Source: Fodinibius salicampi (GTDB lineage Bacteria; Bacteroidota; Rhodothermia; Balneolales; Balneolaceae). From it: 64,000 nucleotides of DNA. Of the stretch, positions 14,395 to 34,875 are shown one piece after another. Under the pieces are notes generated by a model. It saw only the letters and a program-made list of their open reading frames with translations, was not told the origin of the DNA and searched no databases. The stretch is from NCBI RefSeq assembly GCF_039545095.1, contig NZ_BAABRS010000003.1, forward strand, positions 434,001 through 498,000, given 5' to 3'. Within the stretch, counting starts at the first letter, position 1. Each line of letters begins with the position of its first letter. Both the position numbers and the translations under genes were made by a program.

Positions 14395-15261
14395 TTAATC
14401 AAAAAGATACTGCCCGGTTTTCTCCATATGCATTAAACGCTTAACCCGGTCTTCCGTATCCGGATGGGTAGAAAACAGACTCATAAAACGTCCGCCATTA
14501 AAGGGATTTACAGGAAACATATGAGAAGTTGAGCGCATAGCCGATTCCGAAACCCTCATGGGGACTTCCTCAGCCGCTTTTTGAATACGCTGCAGTGCAG
14601 AAGCTAGATGGTGGGGCGCGCCGGATATTTCTGCTCCTTCGCGATCAGCCTCGTATTCCCGTGTCCTGCTGATAGCGGACTGTAACATCATAGCCGCAAT
14701 GGGAGCGGTAATAAGTACAATAAGCGCTACCAATGGATTTGCCCCGCGGTCATTACCTCCCATCGGAATAAAATAGGCAAATTGCGCCAGCATACTCAGA
14801 GCACTAACTACCGTTGTCACAATCGTTTGAGTAAGAATATCCCGATTTTTGATATGCGCTAACTCATGAGCCGTAACACCACGAAGCTCATCCTTATCCA
14901 GAGCTTGCAGGATACCTTCGGTGAAGGCCACTGCCGCATTTTCAGGATTGCGTCCCGTTGCAAAAGCATTGGGCTGCTGCTGGGGAATAATATATAGCTT
15001 TGGCATTGGTATTTCCGCCCGCCGGGTTAATTCCTCAACCATCCCGTACAACTCCGGATGCGATTGCTGGTCTACCGGCTGTGCATCGTACATGCGCAAC
15101 ACCATTTTATCGGACTTCCAATAGCTAAAGAAGTTCATTCCCATCGCAAAAACAAAGGCTATTATAAGTCCTGTTGAACCACCTAAAACCTGGCCCACCA
15201 GCATAAACAAAACTGCGGCAAGGGTCATTAAAAATACCGTGCGTAATCCGTTTCTATTCAT
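14395..15261 (-). CDS. htpX: HtpX-family zinc metalloprotease (M48)
   Basis: The protein has 288 residues from the ATG at 15261, which has an AAGGAAG ribosome-binding site six bases upstream. There are two N-terminal membrane segments (about 8-50). The zinc motif is HELAH in TAHELAHIKNRD near residue 140. Two further hydrophobic segments precede the third ligand region REYEADREGAE, and the C-terminus carries the FSTHPDTEDRVKRL block. The family is an inner-membrane protease that degrades damaged membrane proteins under stress. The longer frame starting at 15369 adds residues lacking family similarity. No heat-shock promoter is obvious. Confidence 0.94.
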   Translation of the reverse strand: MNRNGLRTVFLMTLAAVLFMLVGQVLGGSTGLIIAFVFAMGMNFFSYWKSDKMVLRMYDAQPVDQQSHPELYGMVEELTRRAEIPMPKLYIIPQQQPNAFATGRNPENAAVAFTEGILQALDKDELRGVTAHELAHIKNRDILTQTIVTTVVSALSMLAQFAYFIPMGGNDRGANPLVALIVLITAPIAAMMLQSAISRTREYEADREGAEISGAPHHLASALQRIQKAAEEVPMRVSESAMRSTSHMFPVNPFNGGRFMSLFSTHPDTEDRVKRLMHMEKTGQYLFD

Positions 15262-15418
15262 AACTTCTTCCTTTTCTATTTTTATAGCTATTATACGTAT
15301 GAGAGAACCTGATGTTTCTCTTTCCGATATAAATATGCTATCACAACCGTATTTATAACGTAAAATCAATTCTTTTTAGTTCTTATTTCCGACCAATTAT
15401 TTCTAGAACCAATAATTA

Positions 15419-15426
15419 TAATTTTG
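15419..15426 (+). promoter_or_regulatory. Possible Bacteroidota -7 box before the decarboxylase gene
   Basis: TAATTTTG matches the TAnnTTTG consensus exactly and lies 67 bases before the ATG at 15494. No convincing -33 TTG is present, so the call rests on the -7 box alone. Confidence 0.35.
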
Positions 15427-15493
15427 CGTCTGTTTTCGGGAGTCGTATATTCATATCCATTTATTTTCTATTCAGCAAACTGTTATAGTTTCT

Positions 15494-16939
15494 ATGGAGA
15501 AACGCATTAGAGAACTCGAAAAACAGTCCCGGCGACTGGAAATTTCTGACCGGCAGCGATCTACAATGTTGGAAAAAGCCGGCAGATATGGAGAAGAATT
15601 TATAAGTGAGATATCCGAGAAACCCGCCTTTGAGAGCTTCAATAGTACTGAAAGCAAGCTGCACAAACTTTCTTTTGAGGAGGGAGGAAAATCCTTTAAA
15701 AAACTGCTGAACGTACTCAATTCAGAAGTTGACAGTAAAGGGCTAAATCCTGCTTCGGGTAAACATGGCGGGTATATTCCTGGGGGCGGAATATACCCCT
15801 CTGCTATTGCCGACTTCCTGGCAGCCATTACCAACAGATATGCCGGCGTCTTTTTCTCATCCCCCGGAGCTGTACAGATAGAAAATAAATGCATCCGCTG
15901 GATGTGCGACCTCGTTGGCTATCCTGATACAGCGGCCGGAAACCTGACTTCCGGAGGATCCATCGCTAATCTTATTGGAATGGTTGCCGCCCGGGATGAT
16001 TCCGGTATTCAAGCGAAAGATTTTGAAAGAGCAGTGATTTATACTACCCACCAGGTTCATCACTGCGTAATCAAGGCTATAAAATTTGCAGGTCTCAGGG
16101 AAGCTAAAATACGAAAAGTTGAGATGGATGACCGATTTCGAATGAAACCGCAAGCACTATCCCGACAGATCGCAAATGATAAAAAAGATGGACTCATTCC
16201 ACTGATGATATTTGCATCAGCGGGTACCACCGACCTGGGAGCCGTCGACCCGATGGATGAGATTGCGGGTATCGCCCAAAACCATAATCTCTGGTTCCAT
16301 GTAGACGCTGCCTACGGCGGATTTTTTCTACTTACTGAACATGGAACAAAAGTAATGAAGGGGATTGAACAATCCGATTCGGTAACAATTGATCCTCATA
16401 AAGGACTCTTTTTACCCTATGGAACAGGGGCTGTACTCGTTAAAGACGGGAAGAAGCTTTTCAAATCCCAGCATATGATGGCAAACTACATGCAGGATAC
16501 CCTGAAAGCGACCGAAGAGTGGTCGCCGGCCGACCTGTCTCCGGAGCTTTCCAAACATTTTCGCGGCTTGCGCATGTGGCTTCCGCTTCAACTACTGGGT
16601 ATAGCTCCTTTTCGGGCTGCGCTGGACGAGAAGCTATTGCTTACCCGTTACTTCTACCAGGAAATACAGAAAATAGAGGGTATCGAGGTAGGACCGGAAC
16701 CAGAACTTTCCATACTATTCTTCCGATACATTCCCGACTCCGGCGCTGCCAATGAGTTTAACAAAGACTTGGTGGATTATATCCACCGCGACGGTCGTGT
16801 CTTTTTATCGTCTACCCACATCAACGGGAAGGTATACCTGCGACTAGCCGTGCTCCATTTTCGCACTCATCTCGAGGAAATTGACCTGATTCTTTCCGTC
16901 ATTCGCGAAGGCATTACTGAAATTGCCTCTGAGCACTAG
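15494..16939 (+). CDS. Group II pyridoxal-phosphate-dependent decarboxylase (aromatic/glutamate decarboxylase family)
   Basis: The protein has 481 residues, normal for PF00282 enzymes. Visible blocks are GNLTSGGSIANL near residue 152, HQVHHCVIKA (the His stacking on PLP), WFHVDAAYGGF with the PLP-nitrogen Asp, and SVTIDPHKGLFLPYGTGAV with the Schiff-base Lys. The family decarboxylates L-amino acids such as tryptophan, tyrosine, DOPA or glutamate; the substrate here cannot be fixed from motifs. The gene ends three bases before the convergent tetR-like gene stop. No transporter or partner gene is adjacent. Confidence 0.9.
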   Translation: MEKRIRELEKQSRRLEISDRQRSTMLEKAGRYGEEFISEISEKPAFESFNSTESKLHKLSFEEGGKSFKKLLNVLNSEVDSKGLNPASGKHGGYIPGGGIYPSAIADFLAAITNRYAGVFFSSPGAVQIENKCIRWMCDLVGYPDTAAGNLTSGGSIANLIGMVAARDDSGIQAKDFERAVIYTTHQVHHCVIKAIKFAGLREAKIRKVEMDDRFRMKPQALSRQIANDKKDGLIPLMIFASAGTTDLGAVDPMDEIAGIAQNHNLWFHVDAAYGGFFLLTEHGTKVMKGIEQSDSVTIDPHKGLFLPYGTGAVLVKDGKKLFKSQHMMANYMQDTLKATEEWSPADLSPELSKHFRGLRMWLPLQLLGIAPFRAALDEKLLLTRYFYQEIQKIEGIEVGPEPELSILFFRYIPDSGAANEFNKDLVDYIHRDGRVFLSSTHINGKVYLRLAVLHFRTHLEEIDLILSVIREGITEIASEH

Positions 16940-16942
16940 TTT

Positions 16943-17548
16943 TTAAGACGTCAGCCAGTTTAAAACAGTATCTAAAACAATTCCTTTCCGATCTGTAGCA
17001 CTTCGGACTAGACCAGGCTTATTGGGTAACATCGCATTATGTACAGGGAACGCGAGTGTTGGATAATAACACAGCGAAAAAATATTAAGAAGCAGCTGTT
17101 CCGGCTCTACTGAAGTAATCAAATAGTCTGAGGCTGCTTCCTCAATTTGACTTTTCAGTACATCACTGTCCAGGGAAACTTGCTCTTTAAAAAGTGGAAT
17201 GAGCCAATCCGGGTTACGTCGGCTTTCTGTAATAATGAACCCCAAAGCCTCGGAATGGTCATCGGCCCTTTGCAGGCAAAAATCGATAAATTGCTCAATT
17301 TTTTTAAAAATAGGGATATCTTCTTCCAGCTTTTCTGATAAACCATCAAACACGGTAACTACAGACTGAGCGTATACATGTTCAAACAGCTCTTTCTTGG
17401 TATTAAAATAATAGTGAATCATTGCCTGAGATACTCCTATATGATCGGAAATATTTTTCATGCGGGCCCCCTCGTATCCCCGGGCTAAAAATTCTGTCCT
17501 AGCAGCGTTAATAATCTCTGATCGGCTTCCCGACTTGCTTTCCGGCAT
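16943..17548 (-). CDS. TetR/AcrR-family transcriptional repressor
   Basis: The protein has 201 residues. The N-terminal helix-turn-helix of the TetR_N type spans about residues 10-56, with the FLARGYEGARMKNISDHIGVS block and the recognition block MIHYYFNTKKELFEHVY. The C-terminal ligand domain is all-helical and unrecognised. The gene is followed by a convergent PLP decarboxylase and has a long AT-rich upstream region. A 16-bp inverted repeat at 17616-17631 overlaps a perfect TAGTTTTG -7 box in its own promoter. An almost identical copy lies upstream of the RND efflux operon at 21048. Autoregulation and control of that pump are inferred from this match. Confidence 0.92.
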   Translation of the reverse strand: MPESKSGSRSEIINAARTEFLARGYEGARMKNISDHIGVSQAMIHYYFNTKKELFEHVYAQSVVTVFDGLSEKLEEDIPIFKKIEQFIDFCLQRADDHSEALGFIITESRRNPDWLIPLFKEQVSLDSDVLKSQIEEAASDYLITSVEPEQLLLNIFSLCYYPTLAFPVHNAMLPNKPGLVRSATDRKGIVLDTVLNWLTS

Positions 17549-21252: not shown

Positions 21253-22554
21253 ATGAAAAAGCTTTTGATCAATTTTTTTAAACCAATCACAATTCTATTC
21301 GCGGTTACTCTACTTGTTACAGGCTGCTCGGGAGAAAATACAGAAAGTTCAGGAGGAGATGCAGGTGAAACAGCCTCTGTAACCCCTGCTGTTGAAGCGG
21401 TAAAGGCGCGGTATGGGTCCCTTCCCCTTTCAGAACGATTAAGCGGAACCGTTGTAGCGGACAACCAAGTCGTTTTGTATCCGGAAATTTCCGGGCGTAT
21501 TACACAGGTCCACGTCCGTACGGGTGATAACGTACAAAAGGGTGATCCTCTTGTATCGCTTGAGGATAAACAGTACCAGGAACAAGTAGAGCAGGCCCGG
21601 GCCAACCTTAAGATTAACCAAGCCCAATTAAAGCAGGCCCAAGCCCAATACCGCGAGCTTGAATCTGAATACCGTAGAACGCGGCAGCTTAGTGAAAAGG
21701 AACTCTCCAGTGATCTCGAAATGGAACGCATGGAGGCTCAGATGGAATCCGCAGAAGCAGATGTAGAACTTGCAGAAGCCCAGGTTGAACAGGCGCAGTC
21801 TACTTTGGAAGAACGTCAGGAAATGCTGTCACAGACTGTTGTGAGAGCCCCCATTACCGGAACTGTGGGTCAACGCAATGCAGAAATGGGGATGCAGGTT
21901 GGCTCCAATACACAATTGTTTACGATTGGAGACTTAGACAATCTCCGAGTTGAGGTAGTACTAACCGACAATATGCTCAACGACATATCTGTTGGACAAA
22001 CCGCTAATATCCATGTAGGCGATCAAGTTATCGAAGCTGGACTTTCTCGTATTTCTCCTTTTCTAAATAATGTTACCCGAAGCACGGAGGGCGAAATTGA
22101 TGTAGAGAATGAAAATAACATTCTACGTCCGGGTATGTTTGTCCCAGTTGATATCCTATATGGAGAAAGTCAGCAAGCCACATTAATTCCTACCAGCGGC
22201 CTCTATTCCGATCCGAATACGGGCAATGCCGGAGTATATGTAGCAACTTCTCTTGGAAGCGAAATCCAGCCGGCTGAGCAAGTAAACGCTGATAATCCTC
22301 CTCCTCTTACGGAAGCCACAGAAGTACAATTCAGGGAAGTAGACGTTATCGCTGAAGGTCGCATGGAGGTAGCAGTGGATGGCGTTGAACCCGGCGACTG
22401 GGTCGTAATTGTTGGTCAGGATTTGCTATCGGAAGGACGAAACCAGGCTCGCGTTCGAACCAGTTCTTGGGAACGCATTCTGGCCATGCAGGGGATGCAA
22501 AGACAAGACCTGCTACAGCGTGTACTGGATAGCATCCAGACAGCTAATGAATAA
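21253..22554 (+). CDS. RND efflux periplasmic adaptor (membrane fusion) lipoprotein
   Basis: The protein has 433 residues. A signal sequence ends in lipobox LVTGC (Cys25), giving a lipid anchor in the inner membrane. The barrel-sandwich (biotinyl-lipoyl-like) half begins EISGRITQVHVRTGDNVQKG near residue 78, is followed by a long alpha-hairpin coiled coil (about 108-190, rich in Gln, Glu and Ala), and closes with VRAPITGTVGQRNAEMGMQV. Beta-barrel and membrane-proximal domains follow. It links the inner-membrane pump encoded 31 bases downstream to an outer-membrane channel. No TolC-like gene lies in this operon, so the channel must be encoded elsewhere. Confidence 0.94.
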   Translation: MKKLLINFFKPITILFAVTLLVTGCSGENTESSGGDAGETASVTPAVEAVKARYGSLPLSERLSGTVVADNQVVLYPEISGRITQVHVRTGDNVQKGDPLVSLEDKQYQEQVEQARANLKINQAQLKQAQAQYRELESEYRRTRQLSEKELSSDLEMERMEAQMESAEADVELAEAQVEQAQSTLEERQEMLSQTVVRAPITGTVGQRNAEMGMQVGSNTQLFTIGDLDNLRVEVVLTDNMLNDISVGQTANIHVGDQVIEAGLSRISPFLNNVTRSTEGEIDVENENNILRPGMFVPVDILYGESQQATLIPTSGLYSDPNTGNAGVYVATSLGSEIQPAEQVNADNPPPLTEATEVQFREVDVIAEGRMEVAVDGVEPGDWVVIVGQDLLSEGRNQARVRTSSWERILAMQGMQRQDLLQRVLDSIQTANE

Positions 22555-22585
22555 TTAAAAAGAGCTTATTACAAACTGAACTACT

Positions 22586-25500
22586 ATGAAAATTACCGAA
22601 ACTGCTGTCAATCGTCCGATCGCCACAACGATGTTGTTTCTCATCATCATCGTGCTGGGTGTTATGTCATTTCGATATCTGCCTATTGATCTTCTCCCCC
22701 CTGTAGAATATCCACAGCTAACCGTAGCAACGGAATACCCGAATGTAGGGCCGGAAGAAATAGAAAAAATTATAACCCAGCGGATTGAAAATACCATTGC
22801 TGGAGTGCCTGGTGTTGAGCGCGTTAGATCAAGCTCTTCTGAAGGACAAAGCCGCGTGACTTTAGAGTTTACACAAGGTACAGATATTGACGTCGCTGCC
22901 AATGATATACGTGCCGCCCTGGACCGGATCCGGGATGAACTCCCACCCGAGGCACAAGCTCCGCGTATATGGAAGTTTGATCCGAATAACTTCCCGGTAG
23001 TCATTGTAGGAGCTAATTCTGACAAAAACCTGCAGGAACTGACCCAGCTGCTGGAACGCGAGGTTACCAAACAGTTTGAACAGATCCCGGGGGTTGGCTC
23101 TATTGATATATGGGGCGGAGTCTACAGAGAAGTTCACATAGAGCTCAAGCGGGATCGGTTAATTGCCAGTGGACTTTCATCAGCCCAGGTACAACAAGCT
23201 ATTGCCAGCGAGAATGTTAACTTGCCCGGTGGCAACGTTAATTCAGGTATTCAGCAACTCTATGTCCGTACATTAGGCGAATATGAATCACTCGATCAAA
23301 TTTCGAATACCATTATCACTACGGTTGAAGGCAAACCAATTAGAGTGAAAGATGTGGCCGAAGTAAAATGGGGGTATGAAGACCTCAATCGCCTGGTAAC
23401 TATTGACGGAAAACCAATGGTTCGCTTTGGGATTCGAAAACAAACCGGGGCTAATACCGTTGCAGTAGCAGAAAATATTCGCAATGAAATTGAGCGGGTT
23501 AACGAGCAACGTGATGACATGGAGCTCTTTGTCACCACCGACCAGAGTGAATTTATCCAAAGTTCCATTGATAATGTTCAAAACTCAGCCGTTTGGGGAG
23601 CTTTACTTGCTATATTTGTATTATATCTCTTTCTCAGGAATGGATCTTCTACTTTCATTATTGCAATAGCAATACCCATATCTATTATTGCCACTTTTGC
23701 CTTGCTGTACTTTAACGGGCTAACCTTAAACCAAATGAGTTTCGGGGGACTCGCTTTAGGAGTTGGGCTTATTGTGGATAACGCCATTGTGGTCCTCGAA
23801 AATATAATACGTCTCAGGGAGGAACGTGGAAAAGACCTAAAGGCCAGTGCCTTGGTCGGAACCCGGGAAGTAGGTGGGGCTATTATCGCTTCTACTATCA
23901 CCACTTCTGTTATCTTTCTGCCAGTCGTATTTATGCAAACGATTTCCGGTACGATCTTCCAGCAACTTGCTCTTGTTGTGGTCTTTGCCTTGGTTTGCTC
24001 CCTCTTTGTTGCGTTAACGCTGGTTCCCATGCTCTGCAGTAAATTTCTTACGGTACAGCCGGAAAAGTCAGAAAAAGCGCAAAAGAAAAACTGGTTCCAG
24101 CGTTACTTCCAGAAGCTGGAAAATAATTATACCGATTTTATTAGCTATACACTGGGGAGGAAAGGATGGGTATTTGGCATCACCGGGGTATTGGTTATCG
24201 GATCCTTTTTACTCATTCCTATCATTCCCGTTGAACTGGCCCCGCAATCGGATGCTGATGAAATAGATGTAGACTTTATGATGGCAGAGGGCACTAATAT
24301 TGCGGTTCAAAACGAATACCTTCAGGAACTTGAAAAAGTAGTACGCGCAAACCTACCCATGGACGATGTCGACCATCTTACCACGGACGTTCGTGACGGT
24401 CGTGCTGAAGTTGAAATTTCCATGGTTAATGCTTCTGAACGGTCACAAAGCACTTCGAAAATTGCAGATCAGCTTCGCGAAAAAGTAGCCGGCACAATTC
24501 CGGGTGGAGATATTCGCGTAAGTGCTCAATCGGGGCTATGGATTTTGCGTCGGCTGTTTGGATCCGGGGGAGGAGAAGCCGTGGAAGTACAGCTCAGGGG
24601 TTATAACTTGGATCAGGCCCAGAAAATCTCCCAGGAAATTAAACTGCGTATGGAAGAAATCCCAGAAGTTTCGGGTGTTCGGGTTGACCGCAGAGAGGGT
24701 CGGCCTGAAGAAAACATGACCTTTGACCGGGAAAAAATAGCAGATCTTGGCCTCACTGTAAGTGAAGTAGCCCGGGTCATCCAAACAAATATAGGCGGCA
24801 GCAGGGCCGGAACGTACCGTGTAGGAGGAGATGAGTTTCCGATAAATGTCCGGCTCCAGCCTGATGACCGTCTAAGCACGACTGATCTTGATAACATTTC
24901 CATCCGGGCAGCGAACGGAGAGGTATTACCTATATCGGCTGTTGTCTCACAAAAGAAGGGCCGGGGACCTACGGATATCAACCGTATAAACAGTCAGCGC
25001 GTGTCGTATATCTCGGCAAATTTGGAAAGCGGAGTTGCCTTGGGGGAAGCAGTCGAAAAGATTCAGGCTAAACTCTCCGATGTACCGCTGCCCGATGGTT
25101 TTTCTATAGTATACAGTGGTGAATATGAAGAGCAGCAGAAAGCAGCTGCTGATTTTCAACTTTCCATAATTATGGCACTGATACTTATCTATATGGTTAT
25201 GGCAGCCCAGTTTGAGCGTTTCTTTGATCCGCTGGTTGTTATGTTTTCAGTACCGCTTGCCGTTATTGGGGTTGTTCCAACGCTTCTGATTACGGGCACA
25301 ACTATCAATATGCAGAGCATGATGGGGATCGTGATGCTCATAGGTATTGTAGTAAATAATGCGATTGTACTGGTAGACTATATCAACCTGATGCGAAGAG
25401 AGCACGGCATGAACGTCCGGGAAGCTGTTATCTATTCTGGAAAGCTCCGCCTGCGTCCTATACTAATGACTACACTTACCACTGTCTTAGGATTATTACC

Positions 25501-25702
25501 GTTATCATTTGGAGTAGGAGCGGGAGCCGAAATACAGGCATCCCTGGCACGTGTAGTTATTGGCGGGCTTACAGCCTCAACCCTGATTACACTGGTATTC
25601 ATCCCGGTTGTATATGTCTCTGCCGAACAATTCCTTGCCCGCGTCCGCAGTAAAAACTGGATCCCGTTCACTAACGAAAGTGTGAGTCCCGCAAAGGCTT
25701 AA
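22586..25702 (+). CDS. RND-family efflux permease (AcrB/HAE1 type)
   Basis: The protein has 1038 residues, the full family length. It has twelve membrane segments in two symmetric halves, each with a large periplasmic porter/docking loop. The N-terminus [14 protein letters not shown] and the proton-relay segment of helix 4 ([20 protein letters not shown]) are typical of HAE1 proteins. The second half repeats the pattern with [21 protein letters not shown]. The pump exports drugs or other amphiphiles by proton antiport as a trimer. It is co-transcribed with the adaptor and followed by a hairpin at 25772. The candidate TetR operator at 21048 suggests inducible expression. Confidence 0.95.
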
Positions 25703-25791: not shown

Positions 25792-25831
25792 GTTACGTAC
25801 GTTCTTATAAAAATTTAGGATTAACTTGGCT

Positions 25832-27226
25832 ATGTCTATTTCCCGCAAACATTTTTTAAAACAGGCCGGAGCGCTTACATTAGGGTTTTCCGGGCTGCAA
25901 ATTATCAGCGGCTGTACTCCCTCGGACCGAATGAGCAAAAATCTGATAACGGATCCTTTTGGACCCCTGCAATCCGATCCCAATGGACTCTTTGATCTTC
26001 CAGAAGGATTTAACTACAAAATAATCTCTAAATTCGGGGATCAGATGGATGACGGCTTGTTTGTACCTCATCGCCCTGATGGCATGGCTACCTTTCCGGG
26101 GCCGGATGGACTCACCATTTTGATCCGCAACCATGAAGTTAATCCTGCTAAAGGAGGCGCCGAAAGTGCCTTTGGAGAAGACTTTGCCTTAACGGACAAG
26201 CTAGGTCCCGATGAATTCTACGACCTCGGTCAGGATAACAATCCCGGACAAGGAGGGACGACGACTATCGTCTACGATACCGAAAATCAACAGATTGTTC
26301 GTGAATTTCTGAGCATAGCAGGAACGTTACGTAATTGCGCCGGGGGACCGACGCCCTGGAACAGCTGGCTAACCTGCGAAGAAATTGTGACCGAGCCCGA
26401 TGATGTTTATGCCAAACGACACGGATATGTATTTGAAGTACCGGCCTCCGCAGAAATCGGTCGCGCCCGTCCCATTCCTATAAAAGATATGGGACGTTTT
26501 AACCACGAAGCCGTAGCAGTTGATCCCAACAGCGATGTAATCTATCTCACCGAGGACGATTCTGAAGGCTTACTGTATCGGTTTATTCCCAATACGCCGG
26601 CTAAATTACTGGATGGAGGTAAACTACAGGCTCTCGCTGTCAAAGAACGTCCAAGTTTAGATACCCGTAACTGGGAGTCCCAAACAATAGAAGTAGGAGA
26701 AAATTTACAGACAGAATGGATTGATGTAAAAGATGTTGACAGTCCGAACGATGATCTCCGCTACCGTGGATTTAATGATGGTGCGGCTCGTTTTGCCCGG
26801 GGAGAAGGCATGTGGTATGGAAATGATGCAATCTATTTTGCCTGTACAAATGGCGGACCTGAAGAATTGGGTCAAATATGGAAATACACGCCCAGTACGG
26901 ATGAAGCCACCTCTGGTGAAGAAAACAATCCCGGTACCCTTGAACTATTTGTAGAATCACTGGACAGCACCATCATAGAAAATGCTGATAACCTTACGGT
27001 TGCTCCCTGGGGTGACTTAATAGTCTGTGAAGATACCGACGAAAAACAGGATCTAAATGGCATAACTCCTGAGGGAAAAGTCTATAAGCTTGGTCGAAAT
27101 GCAAAATCTAATTCTGAATTGGCTGGAGCTGTATTTTCACCCGATGGTTCAACCCTTTTTATGAACATCCAGCATTCCGGCATAACACTGGCTATCAATG
27201 GTCCTTGGGAGAAATCAAGGGGATAG
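25832..27226 (+). CDS. PhoX-like (DUF839) alkaline phosphatase-family lipoprotein
   Basis: The protein has 464 residues from the ATG at 25832, which has TTTAGGA upstream; a TTG two codons earlier is less likely. The N-terminus SRKHFLKQAGALTLGFSG resembles a twin-arginine signal with RK instead of RR, and a lipobox-like ISGC ends it near residue 28. Typical PhoX blocks are IRNHEVNPAKGG, CAGGPTPWNSWLTCEE (the metal-ligand region) and MGRFNHEAVAVDP. The family is a five-bladed propeller phosphatase using calcium and iron; DUF839 also holds uncharacterised members. It is monocistronic, closed by the hairpin at 27248. Confidence 0.85.
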   Translation: MSISRKHFLKQAGALTLGFSGLQIISGCTPSDRMSKNLITDPFGPLQSDPNGLFDLPEGFNYKIISKFGDQMDDGLFVPHRPDGMATFPGPDGLTILIRNHEVNPAKGGAESAFGEDFALTDKLGPDEFYDLGQDNNPGQGGTTTIVYDTENQQIVREFLSIAGTLRNCAGGPTPWNSWLTCEEIVTEPDDVYAKRHGYVFEVPASAEIGRARPIPIKDMGRFNHEAVAVDPNSDVIYLTEDDSEGLLYRFIPNTPAKLLDGGKLQALAVKERPSLDTRNWESQTIEVGENLQTEWIDVKDVDSPNDDLRYRGFNDGAARFARGEGMWYGNDAIYFACTNGGPEELGQIWKYTPSTDEATSGEENNPGTLELFVESLDSTIIENADNLTVAPWGDLIVCEDTDEKQDLNGITPEGKVYKLGRNAKSNSELAGAVFSPDGSTLFMNIQHSGITLAINGPWEKSRG

Positions 27227-27805: not shown

Positions 27806-27849
27806 TTGCAGTATTGCATCACTCCTATATTCATGCTTGCACAACTGCA
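27806..27849. promoter_or_regulatory. Two tandem TTGCA-N4-TGCA sites upstream of the porin-like gene
   Basis: Site 1 is TTGCAGTATTGCA (27806-27818) and site 2 is TTGCACAACTGCA (27837-27849); each is an inverted repeat around four bases. The layout matches 30651-30695 upstream of yceI almost exactly (8 bp within each site pair, 23 versus 24 bp between them). The first site lies 151 bp upstream of a -24-like TGG at 27957. Confidence 0.65.
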
Positions 27850-27956
27850 ATTAATCTCCTTTTCTTTTCTCCGTTGATCATCTACCAGGTAAAAAAGTTT
27901 CAAAAAAAACACACCTTATGTTCCATTATGCCCCTTTATGAATTTTTTTTCTTATC

Positions 27957-27972
27957 TGGTACCGTTTTGGAA
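27957..27972 (+). promoter_or_regulatory. Possible sigma54 promoter of the porin-like gene
   Basis: TGGTAC (27957-27962) matches the -24 element. The -12 part reads TTTTGGAA, so the invariant GC is replaced by GG or GA at about the expected spacing. On its own it is weak. The support comes from the tandem sites upstream at the same distance as in the yceI promoter. Confidence 0.4.
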
Positions 27973-28074
27973 TAGATATTGTATCACTATAAAACTCAAC
28001 GAAGAAAGATCAAATATTTTTTAATAAGCATTATTAAACAACTAACAGTAATAACAAAAAAAAGGAGTATCATT

Positions 28075-29349
28075 ATGAAGCTCTCCATAAAATACATCAC
28101 TACCCTAGTTCTCGGTTTCTTTTTCATGGCCGGAAACGCATTTGCCCAATTTGATCGGGATCTGCAATACTATACTTATCCCGACCAAAGAGGACTTAAT
28201 CAGTTTGAGGCCCCATTCCAAACCGATGTCGAATTTGACGGAGTCAATGTTCGCATTGGTGGAGCCAATACACTCCAGTTTCAGGGATTAAGCCAGGATA
28301 ACGATGCAGGTGACCTTCCGGCACTTGAATCAAACTTCAACCTCGCAACATCTAACTTGGACCTCGATGTTGGACTCGGAGACGGACTGAGAATGCATTT
28401 GCGAACCTATTTAACCTCACAACACCACACCGAAGCCTATGTAAAAAGTGGATACATGCAAGTTGACCGACTGGATTTCATTAAGGAAGGTTTATTATCC
28501 GGACTTATGGATAAGATGCGCTTTAAAGTAGGTCACATGGAGCTGAACTACGGGGACAACCATTTTCGGCGTACCGATAACGCTTTTGCCATCCACAACC
28601 CATTTGTAGGAAACTACATTATGGATTCATTTACTACTGAAGTTGCAGGAGAGGTTTATTATTACGATAAAGGCCTTTTAGCAATGTTAGGTGTAAGCAA
28701 TGGCAAACTGAATCAAAGCGTTGTTGCGGGGGATATTAAAACGCATGCTACCGTTTATGGTAAATTAGGTTATGACAAAAAAATGGGCGACCAATTACAC
28801 TTCCGTTTAACAGGTTCAGTCCTGAATGTCTCAAATTCTCCGTCCATCTATCTCTATTCCGGAGACCGAGCAGGTTCTCGTTATTATAGTGTAATGGATG
28901 ACGGATTCCGTTCTGGCCGATTTGCCCCCAGCTTTACTCCCGGACGTGGTGAGCCTGCTGCTGCGGGTGAAATGACTGCCATTATGATCAACCCATTCGT
29001 AAAATTCCAGGGACTTGAATTCTACGGTGTTTTCGAAAATACTTCTGGAAATATCAAAGGCAACGATTCCCGAACCTTCAACCAATATGGTGCCGAACTG
29101 TTGTATCGCTTCGGTGCAAATGAAGACTTTTACCTGGGTGGTCGATATAACCTGGTCAGTGGCGAAACTATGAGTGGAGATATAGAAATCGATCGCTTTA
29201 ACATTGGCGGCGGTTGGTTCCTTACTAAAAACGTGATGGCCAAACTCGAGTATGTCACTCAATCTTTTGACGGTGAAGGTTATACCGACACCAAATACCA
29301 AGGTGGCGAATTTGATGGTGTAATGCTCGAAGCCGTTATCAGTTTCTAA
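28075..29349 (+). CDS. Porin-like outer-membrane beta-barrel protein
   Basis: The protein has 424 residues from the ATG at 28075, preceded by the strong site AAAAGGAG; 32 extra residues from the frame opening at 27979 lack a signal peptide. The signal peptide ends at about residue 24 (GNAFAQ). The rest alternates polar and hydrophobic residues in beta-strand pattern, with aromatic girdles and a final strand ending VMLEAVISF, the terminal Phe typical of outer-membrane proteins. A central block MRFKVGHMELNYGDNHFRRTD resembles phosphate/short-chain porin relatives, but no family is certain. It is followed by a strong terminator. Sigma54 control is inferred. Confidence 0.75.
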   Translation: MKLSIKYITTLVLGFFFMAGNAFAQFDRDLQYYTYPDQRGLNQFEAPFQTDVEFDGVNVRIGGANTLQFQGLSQDNDAGDLPALESNFNLATSNLDLDVGLGDGLRMHLRTYLTSQHHTEAYVKSGYMQVDRLDFIKEGLLSGLMDKMRFKVGHMELNYGDNHFRRTDNAFAIHNPFVGNYIMDSFTTEVAGEVYYYDKGLLAMLGVSNGKLNQSVVAGDIKTHATVYGKLGYDKKMGDQLHFRLTGSVLNVSNSPSIYLYSGDRAGSRYYSVMDDGFRSGRFAPSFTPGRGEPAAAGEMTAIMINPFVKFQGLEFYGVFENTSGNIKGNDSRTFNQYGAELLYRFGANEDFYLGGRYNLVSGETMSGDIEIDRFNIGGGWFLTKNVMAKLEYVTQSFDGEGYTDTKYQGGEFDGVMLEAVISF

Positions 29350-29404
29350 ACATAAATACCTCTTTGTTTGCCTCATCCCTAAGGCAAATCATATATAATC
29401 CCTC

Positions 29405-29443
29405 AACGGTGTCGTCAGGATATGGCGGCACCGTTTTTATTTT
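29405..29443 (+). terminator. Rho-independent terminator of the porin-like gene
   Basis: Ten-base arms AACGGTGTCG and CGGCACCGTT (one G-T pair) are followed by TTTATTTTA. Confidence 0.9.
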
Positions 29444-30131
29444 ATACATAATTTTCTTCTAAGGCTTTTTTCTCCACCAGATTTCTAATAGTAACATCCT
29501 TTCGGCCTGTCCGTCATCTGATAATTGAAACACCTGTTGCTTCCATTATCGGTAGCCCAGATTAACATAAATCAATTGCCAGTTGAAAGGAATTTGTTTT
29601 CTGATCCCCCAATTAACATTTAAGATATCTGATAGTTTTTTGAAAGATTCATCTACTCAGATCCTTACCTATTAATCGTTCAGTCCTACCTAAAATAGAA
29701 AAGCTTATTACCGGTTCTAATTTTTATGACCTGTCCCGGATATCTTGGACTAGAAGTTGAGTTCGCCGTACCTCCTAAACATTCCAGCACAAATAGAAAA
29801 CTCTCAGTCTCCTGCAGAAAAGTTTATGTTGCTTGTATATAGTATTCCTTTTCCGAAGAAACCATTATATACCTTAAGGTTAGGCCAGATATTCTTCAAC
29901 GGATGATGTGTCTTATATAAAACTAAATGAATGTTCTAGCAGGAATACCTGGCACGAAAAAGTAAAGACAAGTAATGCTATTACGCCTTCTATCAGTTGG
30001 CTGATTACAAATTTTGGATCACCAAATCTTATAATACCACTCTTGGGGTTATAGCGTGCTGAATAACAGGAAAAAGTAACAAAATAGGAAGAGAACCACT
30101 TTAAAGTTATGAGGAATCTCTTTTATTTTTA
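29444..30131. other. 690-bp region without an intact gene, probably decayed genes
   Basis: No complete reading frame with a start is present. The minus strand holds two adjacent open fragments (29546-29720, listed separately). A third minus-strand open stretch (about 29913-30066) has protein-like composition (containing RYNPKSGIIRFGDPKFVI) but no start. A sequence TGACCTGTCCC...TTGGAC at 29727-29749 resembles IS3-type terminal repeats; this last point is inference only. Confidence 0.4.
29546..29720 (-). pseudogene. Possible remnant of an outer-membrane beta-barrel gene, frameshifted
   Basis: Two minus-strand frames read on from one another across a frameshift near 29650. The first (29720 to 29649) includes ISFSILGRTERLIGKDLSR. 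The second (29656 to 29546) ends NWQLIYVNLGYR followed by a stop. The alternating aromatic pattern is that of terminal barrel strands. No start, ribosome-binding site or promoter is visible, and the parent family is not identified. Confidence 0.25.
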
Positions 30132-30497
30132 TCAGGCAAGTGGAAGCGTCATTTTCTTTATAACTCCAAGCAGCTCATCGAATTCAATCGGCTCCAAGAT
30201 GCAGTCATCTGCCAACTCCATTAATTCAAGGTAACAGGTTTCGTAGGTCAGATATGAAATTATTGCAATAACTTTTGCAGAAGGGAATTCTTGTTTAACC
30301 TCATGCAGCAGCGTGGATTTAAAAATATATTGACTGCATGCAATTACAATATCAATCTTTTCTCTATTCAAATACTCTTTGGAGCCCTCATCATCTTTGG
30401 GGACAAAACAGTCATACCCTTCTTCCTGCAGTAAAAGCTGTAAGGAATCCCGGATGGCTTCTTCTTTGTCGAGTATTAAAATTGAAGGTAATTGCAT
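30132..30497 (-). CDS. Stand-alone receiver-like protein lacking the phospho-acceptor Asp
   Basis: The protein has 121 residues, a single receiver-fold domain without an output domain. The start SILILDKEEAIRDSL matches the acidic-pocket strand, but the second acid is Lys11. The position of the phospho-acceptor after DIVIA is Cys54 instead of Asp, and the conserved Lys of KP is Glu102 (LEPIEF). Phosphorylation by the standard mechanism is therefore not expected. It is divergent from yceI, with the tandem UAS-like sites between them, and lies close to the NtrC/kinase pair. It may act as a protein-interaction module in that system. Confidence 0.75.
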   Translation of the reverse strand: MQLPSILILDKEEAIRDSLQLLLQEEGYDCFVPKDDEGSKEYLNREKIDIVIACSQYIFKSTLLHEVKQEFPSAKVIAIISYLTYETCYLELMELADDCILEPIEFDELLGVIKKMTLPLA

Positions 30498-30650
30498 TGA
30501 TAATTATTTGCTTGCTATTGTAGTAATGAATAGCTCTTGCTATTACTATTGCAATTAACGGGCCAATTTTATAGAAAAGACATAATTATGGCATGAAGTA
30601 GTAAAAAAGAGAATCTACAAATCGAAAGGCTATCAGTAATTATTTAATAG

Positions 30651-30695
30651 TTGCAGCAATGCAATCATTTTGAAGCGTTACGTTGCATAACTGCA
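30651..30695. promoter_or_regulatory. Two tandem TTGCA-N4-TGCA sites upstream of yceI
   Basis: Site 1 is TTGCAGCAATGCA (30651-30663) and site 2 is TTGCATAACTGCA (30683-30695). Together they form the same paired layout as 27806-27849. The first site lies 153 bp upstream of the sigma54 -24 element at 30804, a normal distance for enhancer sites of NtrC-type activators. Confidence 0.7.
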
Positions 30696-30803
30696 TATAG
30701 CTATCAGGTGTACTTTTTTAATTTCCAAATAATTCTCAAAACCCCTCCTCAGACGGTATAAACTGGCCCCTTTTCACAAAAAAATATTTTATAATCCAAA
30801 TTT

Positions 30804-30819
30804 TGGTATGATGATTGCA
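30804..30819 (+). promoter_or_regulatory. Sigma54 (-24/-12) promoter of the yceI pair
   Basis: TGGTATG and TTGCA are spaced so that GG and GC are ten bases apart, matching the TGGCACG-N4-TTGCA consensus except at two positions. It is 54 bases upstream of the yceI ATG. A sigma54 activator with an intact GAFTGA motif is encoded 1.4 kb away. Confidence 0.7.
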
Positions 30820-30872
30820 CTATTACTTATATCAAATAACTCATTGTTTTTAATATCTAAAAAGAGGTTGTT

Positions 30873-31469
30873 ATGAAGTATCTACTTACATCTTTAATTA
30901 TGTTCTTATCTGTTGCTATAGGTAATGTATTCGCGCAATCAAACAGCGTTACTCTATTGGAAAAGAGTACTATGCAAATCGATGGAACTTCAAATGTTCA
31001 CGACTGGACAGCTGACGTAGAACAGCTGAACTTTGACATCTCACTCGACCAATCGGCTGTAGAGGGAGAGTCTCTTCAAAATCCGGTTACCGCTCTCTCT
31101 CTAACTATTCCTGTAGAAGGACTTGAAAGCGGCAAGGGACGCATGAATGGAAAAATGTATGATGCCCTCAAAAAAGACAAGAATCCAACAATTACATTTA
31201 AAATGTCGTCCTCGGAATTAGCGAAGACTACCTCCGATACCGGCTTTATGCTCAACACATCAGGAACGCTCACTGTCGCCGGTACCAGTAATGAAATCAG
31301 TTTCCCGGTCGAGGGAACGATTCAAGACGACGGTACCTTTAAGTTTACCGGTAGTTACGAAATTGACATGAACGACTACAATGTTGATCCCCCTACTGCT
31401 ATGTTTGGGGCTGTCAGAAGTGGTGAAATGGTTACTATAAACTTTGAACTCTTTTTCTCAGTTCAATAA
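30873..31469 (+). CDS. YceI-family periplasmic lipid-binding-like protein (first copy)
   Basis: The protein has 198 residues. A signal peptide ends at about residue 21 (GNVFAQ). The YceI beta-barrel follows, with the typical IDGTSNVHDWTADVE start, a GKGRMNGKMYDALK block near residue 88 and the final NDYNVDPPTAMFG block. Characterised YceI proteins are lipocalin-like and bind polyisoprenoids or related lipids. The site AAGAGG lies before the ATG. The second, diverged copy begins 16 bases downstream, so they are probably one operon from the sigma54-type promoter at 30804. Confidence 0.92.
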   Translation: MKYLLTSLIMFLSVAIGNVFAQSNSVTLLEKSTMQIDGTSNVHDWTADVEQLNFDISLDQSAVEGESLQNPVTALSLTIPVEGLESGKGRMNGKMYDALKKDKNPTITFKMSSSELAKTTSDTGFMLNTSGTLTVAGTSNEISFPVEGTIQDDGTFKFTGSYEIDMNDYNVDPPTAMFGAVRSGEMVTINFELFFSVQ

Positions 31470-31485
31470 ATAACGCAGATGGACA

Positions 31486-32211
31486 ATGCGCCCCGCTTTA
31501 TTTAATAACTCAATCAACAAAATCTTGAAACTATCCTTCTTCATAATACTGGCAATCTCTCTGCTATACCCCATGGCAAGCGGGGCGCAATCCCAATCCA
31601 TGCCGGGAGAGATTACTATCGAGCAAGGCGGGCAATTGTGGATTGAAGGTTCTGCCGGCCCTGTCGATTACCAGTGCAATGCTGAAGAACTTTCGGGCAA
31701 GGGACAAATAAACAATCGTTCGAATCCCCAATCTGTCGTTACAAATGAAGGAGATGTGCAGGTTTCTGTTACCCTCCCCGTTAAGTCACTCAACTGTGGT
31801 AAAAGCGGGATGAACAGAGATATGTATGAAGCTTTAAAAGCTACCAAGCATCCTACCATCAGTTATCAGCTTCTGGATGCCTCAGCGGTTTCATCTGATC
31901 AGAAATCTTCCGATTCCGTTTCTGAAAATCACGATAATGGCTGGATGAACATTAGAACGTACGGCATCATGCAAATTGCCGGCGTAAAAGATACCACTAC
32001 GGTAACAGTTCAGGGCAGGGTTTTAGAGAATAATAAATTCCAGGTGAAAGGGATCAAAGAGCTTCATATGGATACCTACAATATTGATCCACCCAGCAAA
32101 ATGTTCGGTCTTATTAAAGCCAAAAAGGAACTGACCGTTCATTTCGATGTTACAGTAACCCTCCAGGATCAGGCGCTTTCGGAACTAACAATAATCGGTC
32201 TAGTCCGATAA
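31486..32211 (+). CDS. YceI-family protein, diverged second copy
   Basis: The protein has 241 residues. A signal peptide with a longer basic start spans about residues 1-35 (ending SGAQS). The YceI fold is recognisable from GSAGPVDYQCNAEEL, GKSGMNRDMYEALKATKHPTI and the terminal MDTYNIDPPSKMFGLIKAK. It has an insertion rich in Ser and Asp near residue 140 and two Cys residues (Cys64 and Cys104) absent from the first copy, which could form a disulfide. Its 3' end overlaps the convergent NtrC-type gene by 12 bases. A shared role with the first copy is inferred from the operon. Confidence 0.88.
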   Translation: MRPALFNNSINKILKLSFFIILAISLLYPMASGAQSQSMPGEITIEQGGQLWIEGSAGPVDYQCNAEELSGKGQINNRSNPQSVVTNEGDVQVSVTLPVKSLNCGKSGMNRDMYEALKATKHPTISYQLLDASAVSSDQKSSDSVSENHDNGWMNIRTYGIMQIAGVKDTTTVTVQGRVLENNKFQVKGIKELHMDTYNIDPPSKMFGLIKAKKELTVHFDVTVTLQDQALSELTIIGLVR

Positions 32212-33564
32212 ACCAAGGCGTTCCATTTTTCGGTACAGGGTAGAAGGATCGATACCCAGCAAGCGCGCCGCTTCCGATTTATTACCTTCCGTTCGTTTTA
32301 GCATGCTCTGGATGTGATGCTTTTCAAATACCTTTACGGCTTCATCCAGCGATTCACTGTCCATAGTTATATTTACCTCACTCGAATCCACTGACTTTCT
32401 AATTGCTACCGGCAGATCCTCTAACTGCAAATAATCGTTATCACTGAGTAAAACCGCTCGTTCAATAATATTTTCGAGTTCCCGTACCTGTCCTCTCCAC
32501 TGGTATGTCATCATAGCGCTCATCGCCTCGCTGGAAATGCCCTTAAGATTACGCTTAAGCTCCTTATTATATTTTTGTAAAAAATGGTGGGCCAACAGCG
32601 GAATATCTTCCCGGCGCTGTTCCAAGGGGGGAAGTGGTATTTCTACTACATTTAATCGATAATACAAATCATCCCGGAAATTGCCCTTCTCTACTTCAGC
32701 TTCAAGATCTTTATTGGTCGCGGAAATAATGCGCGTATCAAAATTCACGTGACTATTTGATCCCACCGGCTTTACTTCCCGTTCCTGCAGCACCCGCAAC
32801 AAGTTTACCTGAAGATTAAGAGGGATTTCAGCAATTTCATCCAAAAATACCGTTCCGCCATGAGCTGCCACAAATACACCATCTTTATCAGAGGAGGCTC
32901 CCGTAAAAGCTCCCTTTGTGTGGCCAAATAATTCTGATTCAATCAGATCCTCGGGAATAGCACCGCAATTAATAGCCAGGAATGGTTTCTTAGAGCGATC
33001 ACTGTTAGAATGAATAGCCCGGGCGATAAGCTCCTTTCCCGTTCCGCTGTCTCCCGTTATCAGTACGTTGCTGGTGGCCTTACTTACCCGCTCTACCATT
33101 TTATAGACCTTCTTCATGGCATCACTTTCACCGATAATATGATTGAAGTTGTACTCCTGGTCGATCTGTTCCCGTAAATACTTATTTTCCTGAATCAGAT
33201 TTTTATGCTCCAGCAGGTTTTCTATCCGGATAAGCACCTCATCAAAATCGAGGGGTTTCAAAATATAGTCAGCTGCCCCCTTGCGTAATGCCTCAATTGC
33301 CGATTCGATAGTTCCGTGAGCCGTAATAATGATTGTAAGTGTATTGGATGAATGTTGCAGGGCGTATTCCAGCACTCCAAGGCCATCGGTTTTCGGCATT
33401 TTCAAATCAGTAATAATGATATCAAAACTGTGCTTATCTATGGCTTCTACCGCCTCTTGGCCATCCTTAACTGCAGTACAATTATATCCCTCATCTTCTA
33501 ATACAATAGTAAGAGATTCACGTATACCCGATTCGTCATCGGCCACTAATATTGATCCTGTCAT
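32200..33564 (-). CDS. NtrC-family sigma54-dependent response regulator
   Basis: The protein has 454 residues. A receiver domain with phospho-Asp in DIIITDLKMP near residue 52 is followed by an AAA+ sigma54-interaction domain. That domain has Walker A GDSGTGKE, the sigma54-contact loop GAFTGA, and Walker B (GGTVFLDEIAE). A Fis-type helix-turn-helix forms the C-terminus (NKSEAARLLGIDPSTLYRKM). All residues needed for phosphorylation, ATP hydrolysis and sigma54 contact are present. The gene starts three bases after its kinase gene. The tandem sites at 30651 and 27806 are the best candidates for its enhancers. Confidence 0.95.
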   Translation of the reverse strand: MTGSILVADDESGIRESLTIVLEDEGYNCTAVKDGQEAVEAIDKHSFDIIITDLKMPKTDGLGVLEYALQHSSNTLTIIITAHGTIESAIEALRKGAADYILKPLDFDEVLIRIENLLEHKNLIQENKYLREQIDQEYNFNHIIGESDAMKKVYKMVERVSKATSNVLITGDSGTGKELIARAIHSNSDRSKKPFLAINCGAIPEDLIESELFGHTKGAFTGASSDKDGVFVAAHGGTVFLDEIAEIPLNLQVNLLRVLQEREVKPVGSNSHVNFDTRIISATNKDLEAEVEKGNFRDDLYYRLNVVEIPLPPLEQRREDIPLLAHHFLQKYNKELKRNLKGISSEAMSAMMTYQWRGQVRELENIIERAVLLSDNDYLQLEDLPVAIRKSVDSSEVNITMDSESLDEAVKVFEKHHIQSMLKRTEGNKSEAARLLGIDPSTLYRKMERLGLSD

Positions 33565-33567
33565 AGT

Positions 33568-34875
33568 TTATCTTTTTGAAATCGGCAATTTAATCGTAAA
33601 TGTTGTTCCTTTGTCTTCCTCAGAATCCACCCAAATTGAACCATCCATCTGGGTAATTATCCCATGACTTACGGATAATCCCAAACCCGTTCCGCTTCCT
33701 ACTTCTTTGGTCGTAAAAAAAGGCTCAAAAATTCTGGATTGATACTCTTCCTTAATCCCCTTACCTACATCGGAAACGGTTATCTTAATATAATCATCCT
33801 GACTTTCAGTGGATATCATCACCTTTGGATCGGCGACCCTTTTCATTGCGTCCACTGCGTTTAGCAATAGGTTTACTACTACTTGGTGGATCTGATCGGG
33901 CACACAAGAAATAGCGGGCAGACTATCCGAAAGATTAAGCTCAAAGGCAACATCCCGACAGCGGGCATCGTGCTTTAAGAGACCAACCGCTGACTGAATG
34001 ATATCGTTTACCTGCGCATGTTCTGTTTTTTTATTTGATGGACGGGAAAAATCTACCAGCTCGCGCACTATTTTATTAATGCGCTGGATATGCTCCCGGA
34101 CTTTTTTAAGCTGATTTTGTATAAATTCATCATCGGTTTTTCGCTGGCATACCTGAACAAGCGATGAAATAGCGGTAAGGGGATTTCCAACCTCATGGGC
34201 TACTCCTGCGGCCATATGTCCCACCGTTGCTAACCGCTCGGACTGCTGAATTTGTTCCTGTCGCATCTTTATATCCGTTAAATCACGCAAAATCTGGGAA
34301 TGCCCGACAACCTCATTATTCTCATCCCTTACAAACGATTCTGTCAGGTTTACCAGTTTCCTCTCCCCGTTCTTGGTTAGTCTTTCCGTTTCATAATTCT
34401 GTACATAACCCTGCGATTCCATGATTGAGCCTATTTCCCCGAATTCATCCTGTTCAATCAGTTCTGGTGGTACTATTTTTTCAATCGAGCTCCCGATCAT
34501 TTCATCCCGATTCCATCCCAGCATTTTTTCAGCGCCGCGATTCCAGGAACCGATCACCCCCTTATTATCAAGAGAAATAATAGCCTCAGCAGAGTGCTCA
34601 ATAATATCACTATAACGAAGCTTAGTAGCCTCAAGCTGGTCTTCATAGTATGCCCGATAGTTATAAACCGTCCAGGCTGCCCAAACCATTAAAACTAACG
34701 AAACAATAATCCCTCTGCTAAAATAAAGCCACCGCATGGTATCCTGTGGAGTATCAGACAGCAATGTTTGATCAATTATTTCAAATGCCCCATATATTAC
34801 CCCTAAAATAATGAGCGCCGTAAAAAATAAATATCCTATACGCGCATCCCGTAAAAACCGTAATAAGTCTTTCAT
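33568..34875 (-). CDS. PAS-domain membrane sensor histidine kinase (NtrB/AtoS type)
   Basis: The protein has 435 residues. Two N-terminal membrane helices (about 14-34 and 48-66) are followed by a short linker helix. A PAS domain (about 82-195) starts YSDIIEHSAEAIISLDNKGVI and includes the C-terminal PAC motif. HisKA carries the phospho-His in GVAHEVGNPLTAI, and HATPase_c has NLLLNAVDAM and GSGTGLGLSVSHGI. The helices leave almost no external loop, so the signal is probably sensed in the membrane or cytoplasm. It forms an operon with the sigma54 activator downstream and is the expected phosphodonor. Confidence 0.95.
   Translation of the reverse strand: MKDLLRFLRDARIGYLFFTALIILGVIYGAFEIIDQTLLSDTPQDTMRWLYFSRGIIVSLVLMVWAAWTVYNYRAYYEDQLEATKLRYSDIIEHSAEAIISLDNKGVIGSWNRGAEKMLGWNRDEMIGSSIEKIVPPELIEQDEFGEIGSIMESQGYVQNYETERLTKNGERKLVNLTESFVRDENNEVVGHSQILRDLTDIKMRQEQIQQSERLATVGHMAAGVAHEVGNPLTAISSLVQVCQRKTDDEFIQNQLKKVREHIQRINKIVRELVDFSRPSNKKTEHAQVNDIIQSAVGLLKHDARCRDVAFELNLSDSLPAISCVPDQIHQVVVNLLLNAVDAMKRVADPKVMISTESQDDYIKITVSDVGKGIKEEYQSRIFEPFFTTKEVGSGTGLGLSVSHGIITQMDGSIWVDSEEDKGTTFTIKLPISKR

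Follow-up and report, generated by a model that had tools for sequence, protein, structure and literature searches.

Paired palindromes as probable enhancers of an NtrC-type two-component system linked to nitrite and nitrous oxide respiration in Fodinibius and its relatives

Which protein reads the paired palindromes that precede two sets of envelope genes in Fodinibius salicampi, and what do these sites control? The DNA considered here is a stretch of 64,000 nucleotides (contig NZ_BAABRS010000003.1, positions 434,001 to 498,000; hereafter the window, numbered from its first letter). Tandem TTGCA-N4-TGCA inverted repeats lie upstream of a porin-like gene, at 27806-27818 and 27837-27849, and upstream of yceI, at 30651-30663 and 30683-30695. 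An earlier note on this DNA had taken both pairs for binding sites of the NtrC-type activator encoded at 32200-33564 and had described their internal spacing as the same. All the elements it named are present, but the spacing, start to start, is 31 bp at the porin gene and 32 bp at yceI. We computed the sites, the promoters, their conservation, the co-occurrence of sites and activator, and the identity of the targets. The pairs are very probably enhancers of the two-component system formed by this activator and its neighbouring kinase, which would control genes for nitrite and nitrous oxide (N2O) respiration as well as envelope genes in Fodinibius and related bacteria.

The window contains only four TGCA-N4-TGCA palindromes, which form the two pairs; 1.0 would be expected, and a count of four was reached in one of 100 shuffles of the window. 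Pairs with a gap of 18–23 bp, of which the window has two, were found in none of 100 dinucleotide-preserving shuffles. The genome-wide search proposed by the earlier note gave exactly six pairs in the 3.94 Mb genome (G000; pattern search, gap 10–30 bp) and none with the reversed pattern. No further pairs appeared in G000 at gaps of 19, 20 and 21 bp when one mismatch was allowed (two at the 20-bp gap); the genome-wide counts refer to pattern searches at these mismatches and gaps only.

Several matches to the pattern at the phylum level (e.g., in G037, G184 and G261) are simple tandem repeats, and one could imagine that the palindromes of the window are likewise chance or repetitive-element sequence without regulatory role. 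We give this explanation virtually no weight: the shuffle and reversed controls for pairs were zero in window and genome, and pairs recur at orthologous promoters despite diverged N4 and flanking sequences, a conservation by which it is refuted. Single exact pairs also occur in the distant phylum members G222, G277, G180 and G247, where by eye they are not tandem repeats.

The earlier note had made its proposal depend on conservation of the pairs in relatives, and they are indeed kept at the same promoters. Porin pairs are present in 12 of 12 congeners and in six further genomes (G306, G308, G336, G223, G140 and G152), and yceI pairs in 12 of 12 congeners and in the same additional genomes except G308. 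The porin pair of three congeners, G270 (L038:6653-6687), G298 (L101 near 5256) and G297 (L100 near 7488), is spaced by 23 bp instead of 31–32 bp, which is about one helical turn shorter.

If the pairs are enhancers, promoters should be found at a regular distance from them. Over 18 genomes, 57 distinct pairs carrying no more than one mismatch were collected, and 69 directions face an identified target. A strong box of the TGG-N10-GC type, as recognized by sigma54, was found 90–200 bp past the pair in 50 of these 69 directions (72%), against 0 in reversed and 0.1% in shuffled sequence. Moreover, the boxes are spaced from the proximal enhancer with a period of 10.95 bp (R = 0.65 as vector length, which 0 of 5000 uniform draws reached; R = 0.60 with repeats within a target counted once), in keeping with DNA looping. 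Kinship between the genomes weakens the exact significance of this phasing but not the pattern, because from one target to another the distance changes in steps of whole turns.

The individual boxes of the window are listed in Table 1. The yceI -24/-12 box placed at 30804 by the earlier note is present, and a sigma54 box follows the yceI pair in 17 genomes. For the gene of the divergent receiver, three genomes in addition to those given in Table 1 have an equivalent box, and there the receiver best matched the receiver domain of the activator. The TGGTA elements starting at 27957 and 30804 do lie 151 and 153 bp past the first TTGCA, as had been described. As the -24 element of the porin promoter, however, the TGGTA at 27957 was misassigned by 11 bp: it is not conserved in an alignment of 13 related porin promoters, whereas TGGAA-N6-TTG in the overlapping box at 27968-27983 is invariant in 13 of 13. 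The first base of the enhancer is 161 bp away from this box, compared with 171–174 bp in most relatives. The -12 element of the box, TTGTA in place of TTGCA, is conserved at porin boxes in most species.

The candidate binder of the pairs is well defined. TKGAFTGA, GDSGTGKE and a C-terminal helix-turn-helix (HTH) can be read in the activator encoded at 32200, and the Sigma54_activat family matches with 248 bits, bearing out the earlier description of an NtrC-type protein with intact GAFTGA and a kinase beside it. The protein combines a receiver, a sigma54-interacting AAA+ domain (GAFTGA) and a Fis-type HTH, as do NtrC-type (group I) activators. As is also characteristic of that group, a kinase adjoins the activator in nearly every ortholog locus, and tandem enhancer sites phased for looping lie upstream of sigma54 boxes. 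RpoN is encoded in the genome.

The distribution of the sites follows that of this activator. Every one of the 11 remaining congeners has an ortholog of 74–88% identity, and three genomes belonging to other genera (G306, G308 and G336) have one of 72–74%; elsewhere in the family the best match is at most 45% identical. Exact pairs were found in 15 of 15 family genomes with an ortholog (72–100% identity, the genome of the window included) and in 0 of 58 tested family genomes without one. They do not track another activator of G000 (L046), whose 65–69% identical relatives occur in many site-less genomes. These counts come from related species and are not independent events, which is the first of several points against the reading proposed here; the others are gathered below.

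Outside the family, G223, G140 and G152 encode activator orthologs of 55–56% identity beside the same porin and yceI-yceI genes, and a pair, with one mismatch in G152, lies between the divergent yceI and porin genes. Their recognition helices (DPSTLYRKM in G223 and G140, DKSTLYRKM in G152) match that of the window's activator. G004 and G120 (52% identity) have another recognition helix, ISLSSLYRK, no yceI or porin neighbours, and no pairs. No pair was found within up to 10 kb on each side of activator relatives outside Bacteroidota (Calditrichaeota, Spirochaetota, Nitrospirae and others; mostly 40–53% identity). Conservation, co-occurrence, phased boxes and the presence of RpoN thus support the earlier prediction that the pairs serve this activator as enhancers at the porin and yceI sigma54 promoters.

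Could another regulator, for example a nitric oxide (NO) sensor of the Crp/Fnr or Rrf2 type, bind the sites, with the activator next to them by coincidence? The symmetry of TTGCA-N4-TGCAA resembles that of Fnr-type boxes, and an Rrf2-family gene adjoins the nosZ pair described below. We regard this as highly improbable, since a distance of ~90–140 bp from proximal site to promoter, sigma54 boxes and 11-bp phasing all speak for an enhancer protein, the pairs strictly co-occur with the 32200 activator, and most other pairs have no Rrf2 gene beside them. The Rrf2-family gene (L043:10919-11371) lies directly upstream of the nosZ pair here and in many relatives; its product could be a second regulator of nosZ, perhaps an NO- or Fe-S-responsive one.

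With the activator as the probable binder, the targets indicate what the system is for. The earlier regulon of porin, two YceI proteins and possibly the receiver is supported but too narrow, for the pairs also precede nitrite and nitrous oxide reduction genes beyond the window (Table 1). NosZ scored 932 bits against a cut-off of 625 for the Sec-dependent NosZ model. NirK2, with 189 bits, falls below the curated NirK cut-off of 296, and aligns closest to the Geobacillus copper nitrite reductase 3wkq (E 2.5e-67). Nitrite and nitrous oxide reductase genes are therefore found under the same sites, as in a denitrification regulon. The finding is thus more general than first proposed, an NtrC-type enhancer regulon whose physiological role is unexpected. 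Two clusters with a copper nitrite reductase gene exist in the genome (L042:5900-8500 and 14498-17492); both include an FGE/NirV-like gene as well as a SCO1-like one, and the pair is at nirK2 only.

The nosZ pair is kept in 11 of 11 congeners having nosZ (with two mismatches in G300), as well as in G336; G246 is a congener without nosZ. In 16 activator-less relatives with nosZ, no pair with a box was found, even at three mismatches. Pairs precede nirK2-type nitrite reductase genes in G000, G081, G151, G246, G296 and G301, other nirK genes in G270 and G298, Zn-alcohol dehydrogenase genes in G000, G081, G151, G296, G297 and G301, and genes for TonB-C proteins in G081, G151 and G301. Single cases are a short-chain dehydrogenase/reductase gene in G300 and a gene for a probable flavin-dependent (FAD) oxidoreductase, named by eye, in G298. 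Two 712-residue products considered as NO reductases were rejected: the one encoded opposite the TonB-C target belongs to the M3 peptidases, the one in G223 to the GH97 glycosidases.

Besides the kinship of the genomes, the following observations weigh against a nitrogen-oxide regulon of this activator. The score for sigma54 boxes was set by hand, and both the porin promoters and, in this species, the nosZ promoter have TTGTA or TTGAG in place of TTGCA, an atypical -12 element. The full-length NirK of the genome (nirK1; 351 bits, L042:15993-17492), tried as a further target, has no visible pair, nor does nosZ in G306 and G308 despite the activator. Finally, the Zn-alcohol dehydrogenase, the TonB-C protein and the serine hydrolase have no obvious fit to nitrogen-oxide respiration.

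Table 1. Features of the predicted regulon in the window and elsewhere in the genome
Feature	Position	Strand	Basis or remark
Distal enhancer palindrome TGCA-N4-TGCA, porin promoter	27807..27818	none	sequence; predicted
Proximal enhancer palindrome, porin promoter, 31 bp downstream of distal (~3 helical turns)	27838..27849	none	predicted
Porin box of the earlier note, TGGTACCGTTTTGGAA	27957..27972	+	rejected
Porin sigma54 box TGGAATAGATATTGTA	27968..27983	+	13-promoter alignment; predicted
Outer-membrane porin, 424 residues, beta-barrel fold	28075..29349	+	AlphaFold and Foldseek
Stand-alone receiver protein, 121 residues	30132..30497	-	Response_reg, below cut-off; alignment
Receiver-gene sigma54 box TGGCCCGTTAATTGCA	30550..30565	-	equivalent box in 10 genomes; predicted
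First enhancer palindrome, common to divergent yceI and receiver promoters	30652..30663	none	predicted
Second enhancer palindrome, yceI/receiver, 32 bp downstream of first	30684..30695	none	predicted
yceI sigma54 box TGGTATGATGATTGCA	30804..30819	+	recurs behind yceI pair; predicted
YceI-family protein 1, signal peptide by eye	30873..31469	+	PF04264
YceI-family protein 2, same operon as YceI 1	31486..32211	+	PF04264
NtrC/AtoC-type sigma54 activator (receiver, AAA+, Fis HTH), proposed binder of the pairs	32200..33564	-	domains, site co-occurrence, conserved recognition helix
Cognate histidine kinase (PAS-HisKA-HATPase)	33568..34875	-	two N-terminal hydrophobic segments by eye
Copper nitrite reductase-like (nirK2) operon with pair	L001/L042		followed by FGE/NirV-like, SCO1-like, pseudoazurin-like and azurin-like genes
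Cytochrome c-nosZ-nosD with upstream pair	L002/L043		
Zn-alcohol dehydrogenase with upstream pair	L003/L044		
Divergent 292-residue membrane protein and serine hydrolase sharing a pair	L004/L045		

From these data we infer binding, phosphorylation, looping and a direction of control as follows. The kinase would sense a cue and phosphorylate the receiver of the activator, two dimers of which would occupy the adjacent sites of a pair, spaced by about three helical turns. The bound activator would then loop the DNA to RNA polymerase-sigma54 at a promoter ~90–140 bp further on, and its ATPase would open that promoter at the expense of ATP. The resulting regulon would be a nitrogen-oxide respiration programme comprising the porin, YceI-YceI, the stand-alone receiver, the nirK2 operon, cytochrome c-nosZ and the Zn-alcohol dehydrogenase, with minor targets differing by species.

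With nirK and nosZ as the enzymatic targets, the simplest guess for the cue would be nitrogen oxides (nitrite or NO) or low oxygen. Copper status is the main alternative, because NirK, NosZ, the cupredoxins and SCO are all copper proteins: the same enhancer-sigma54 circuit would then raise copper enzymes, SCO chaperones, cupredoxins and outer-membrane functions. NirK, NosZ and the azurin-like and SCO1-like proteins are all related to copper, and the porin and TonB-C proteins could have a part in the passage of metals, but among the listed targets no dedicated copper importer or exporter gene stands behind a pair, no convincing sigma54 box faces the genes of the RND pump beside the porin, and neither the Zn-alcohol dehydrogenase nor YceI is a known copper protein. 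A copper cue is unlikely in our estimation.

The porin matched no Pfam family, and a sequence search of the PDB with it gave meaningless intein matches only. Its AlphaFold model (mean predicted local distance difference test score, pLDDT, 71) is a beta barrel, for which the best Foldseek matches in the PDB are OmpT, OprP, OprO, PorB and OmpF (E 1e-15 to 1e-10). RND efflux genes (21253-25702) lie near the porin gene, and in G151, G081 and G308 just beyond the porin pair; a PhoX-family protein (PF05787, 277 bits) is encoded between the RND genes and the porin gene of the window, at 25826-27226.

The stand-alone receiver is fast-evolving and lies under the same enhancer pair as yceI, a divergent arrangement that recurs in the genus. 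Its gene very probably belongs to the regulon, because it has a sigma54 box of its own (at 30565), in line with what the earlier note had considered possible. The lack of a phospho-site, on the other hand, is not general: the phospho-Asp is replaced by Cys in this species and by Glu in G300, and is kept in most aligned relatives. The acidic pocket looks incomplete in all of these. The alignment thus describes a degenerating receiver family, not one lacking a phospho-site from the outset. The receiver is possibly a feedback partner of the activator or the kinase.

How does this system compare with those already known? It is like the NtrC-, AtoC- and ZraR-type regulators in domain order, GAFTGA-bearing AAA+ domain, Fis HTH, adjacent PAS kinase and paired inverted repeats before sigma54 boxes. 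Unlike them, the window's activator is below the NCBIfam cut-offs for AtoC (475 bits against 714), NtrC, ZraR and NtrX (408 against 600), and has its own palindrome, TGCA-N4-TGCA, and regulon. NorR carries its own sensor domain in place of a receiver. It is also an NtrC-family, sigma54-dependent regulator that acts from tandem enhancer sites on nitrogen-oxide genes (PMC1274295), all of which it shares with the window's system. NorR, however, binds GT-N7-AC and controls NO reductase genes, whereas the present activator (352.7 bits against a NorR cut-off of 476) has a receiver and a kinase, TGCA-N4-TGCA sites, and nirK, nosZ, porin and YceI as targets. NtrYX of Brucella, Neisseria and Paracoccus is likewise a two-component NtrC-family system tied to nitrite and nitrous oxide reduction genes, with an effect of ntrY in Paracoccus on NosZ activity without a change at the nosZ transcript level (PMC9409073); it is proteobacterial, and the NtrX cut-off is not reached here.

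The nitrogen-oxide regulons described in the literature consulted use HcpR, DNR, NnrR, NarXL/QP, NorR or NsrR (PMC1274295). NnrR, DNR, NsrR and HcpR control nirK, nosZ, hcp and hmp elsewhere (PMC1274295), but they are Crp/Fnr or Rrf2 proteins and do not act through sigma54 enhancers. A 2025 survey of sigma54 regulons mentions neither nosZ, nirK or denitrification nor Balneolota (PMC12316311). Searches of the open-licence literature found no description of the motif, nor of YceI with NtrC, nosZ or denitrification, and, on Balneola and Fodinibius, no title on nosZ/nirK-type regulation by such a system. This control circuit therefore seems not to have been described previously. We further propose, as a tentative idea that may well prove too broad, that in this Bacteroidota/Balneolota branch the reduction of nitrite and N2O is under the master control of a two-component sigma54 pathway, and that the usual Crp/Fnr-type regulator would not be needed there. 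The phased double enhancers of this pathway would also drive the porin, YceI and the receiver, which could act as a feedback partner by pairing with activator or kinase domains even without a phospho-site.

N2O is a greenhouse gas that organisms with a Sec-type nosZ, these Balneolaceae among them, are able to consume, and the nitrogen-oxide regulons in the literature cited are mostly those of Proteobacteria, with Crp/Fnr, Rrf2 or NorR proteins. The circuit proposed here was deduced from DNA conserved in at least 15 related salt-loving bacteria, and it gives the YceI proteins and an uncharacterised porin a physiological context. With a defined kinase, activator, DNA motif and target list, the regulation of nitrite and N2O reduction in Balneolaceae becomes directly testable.

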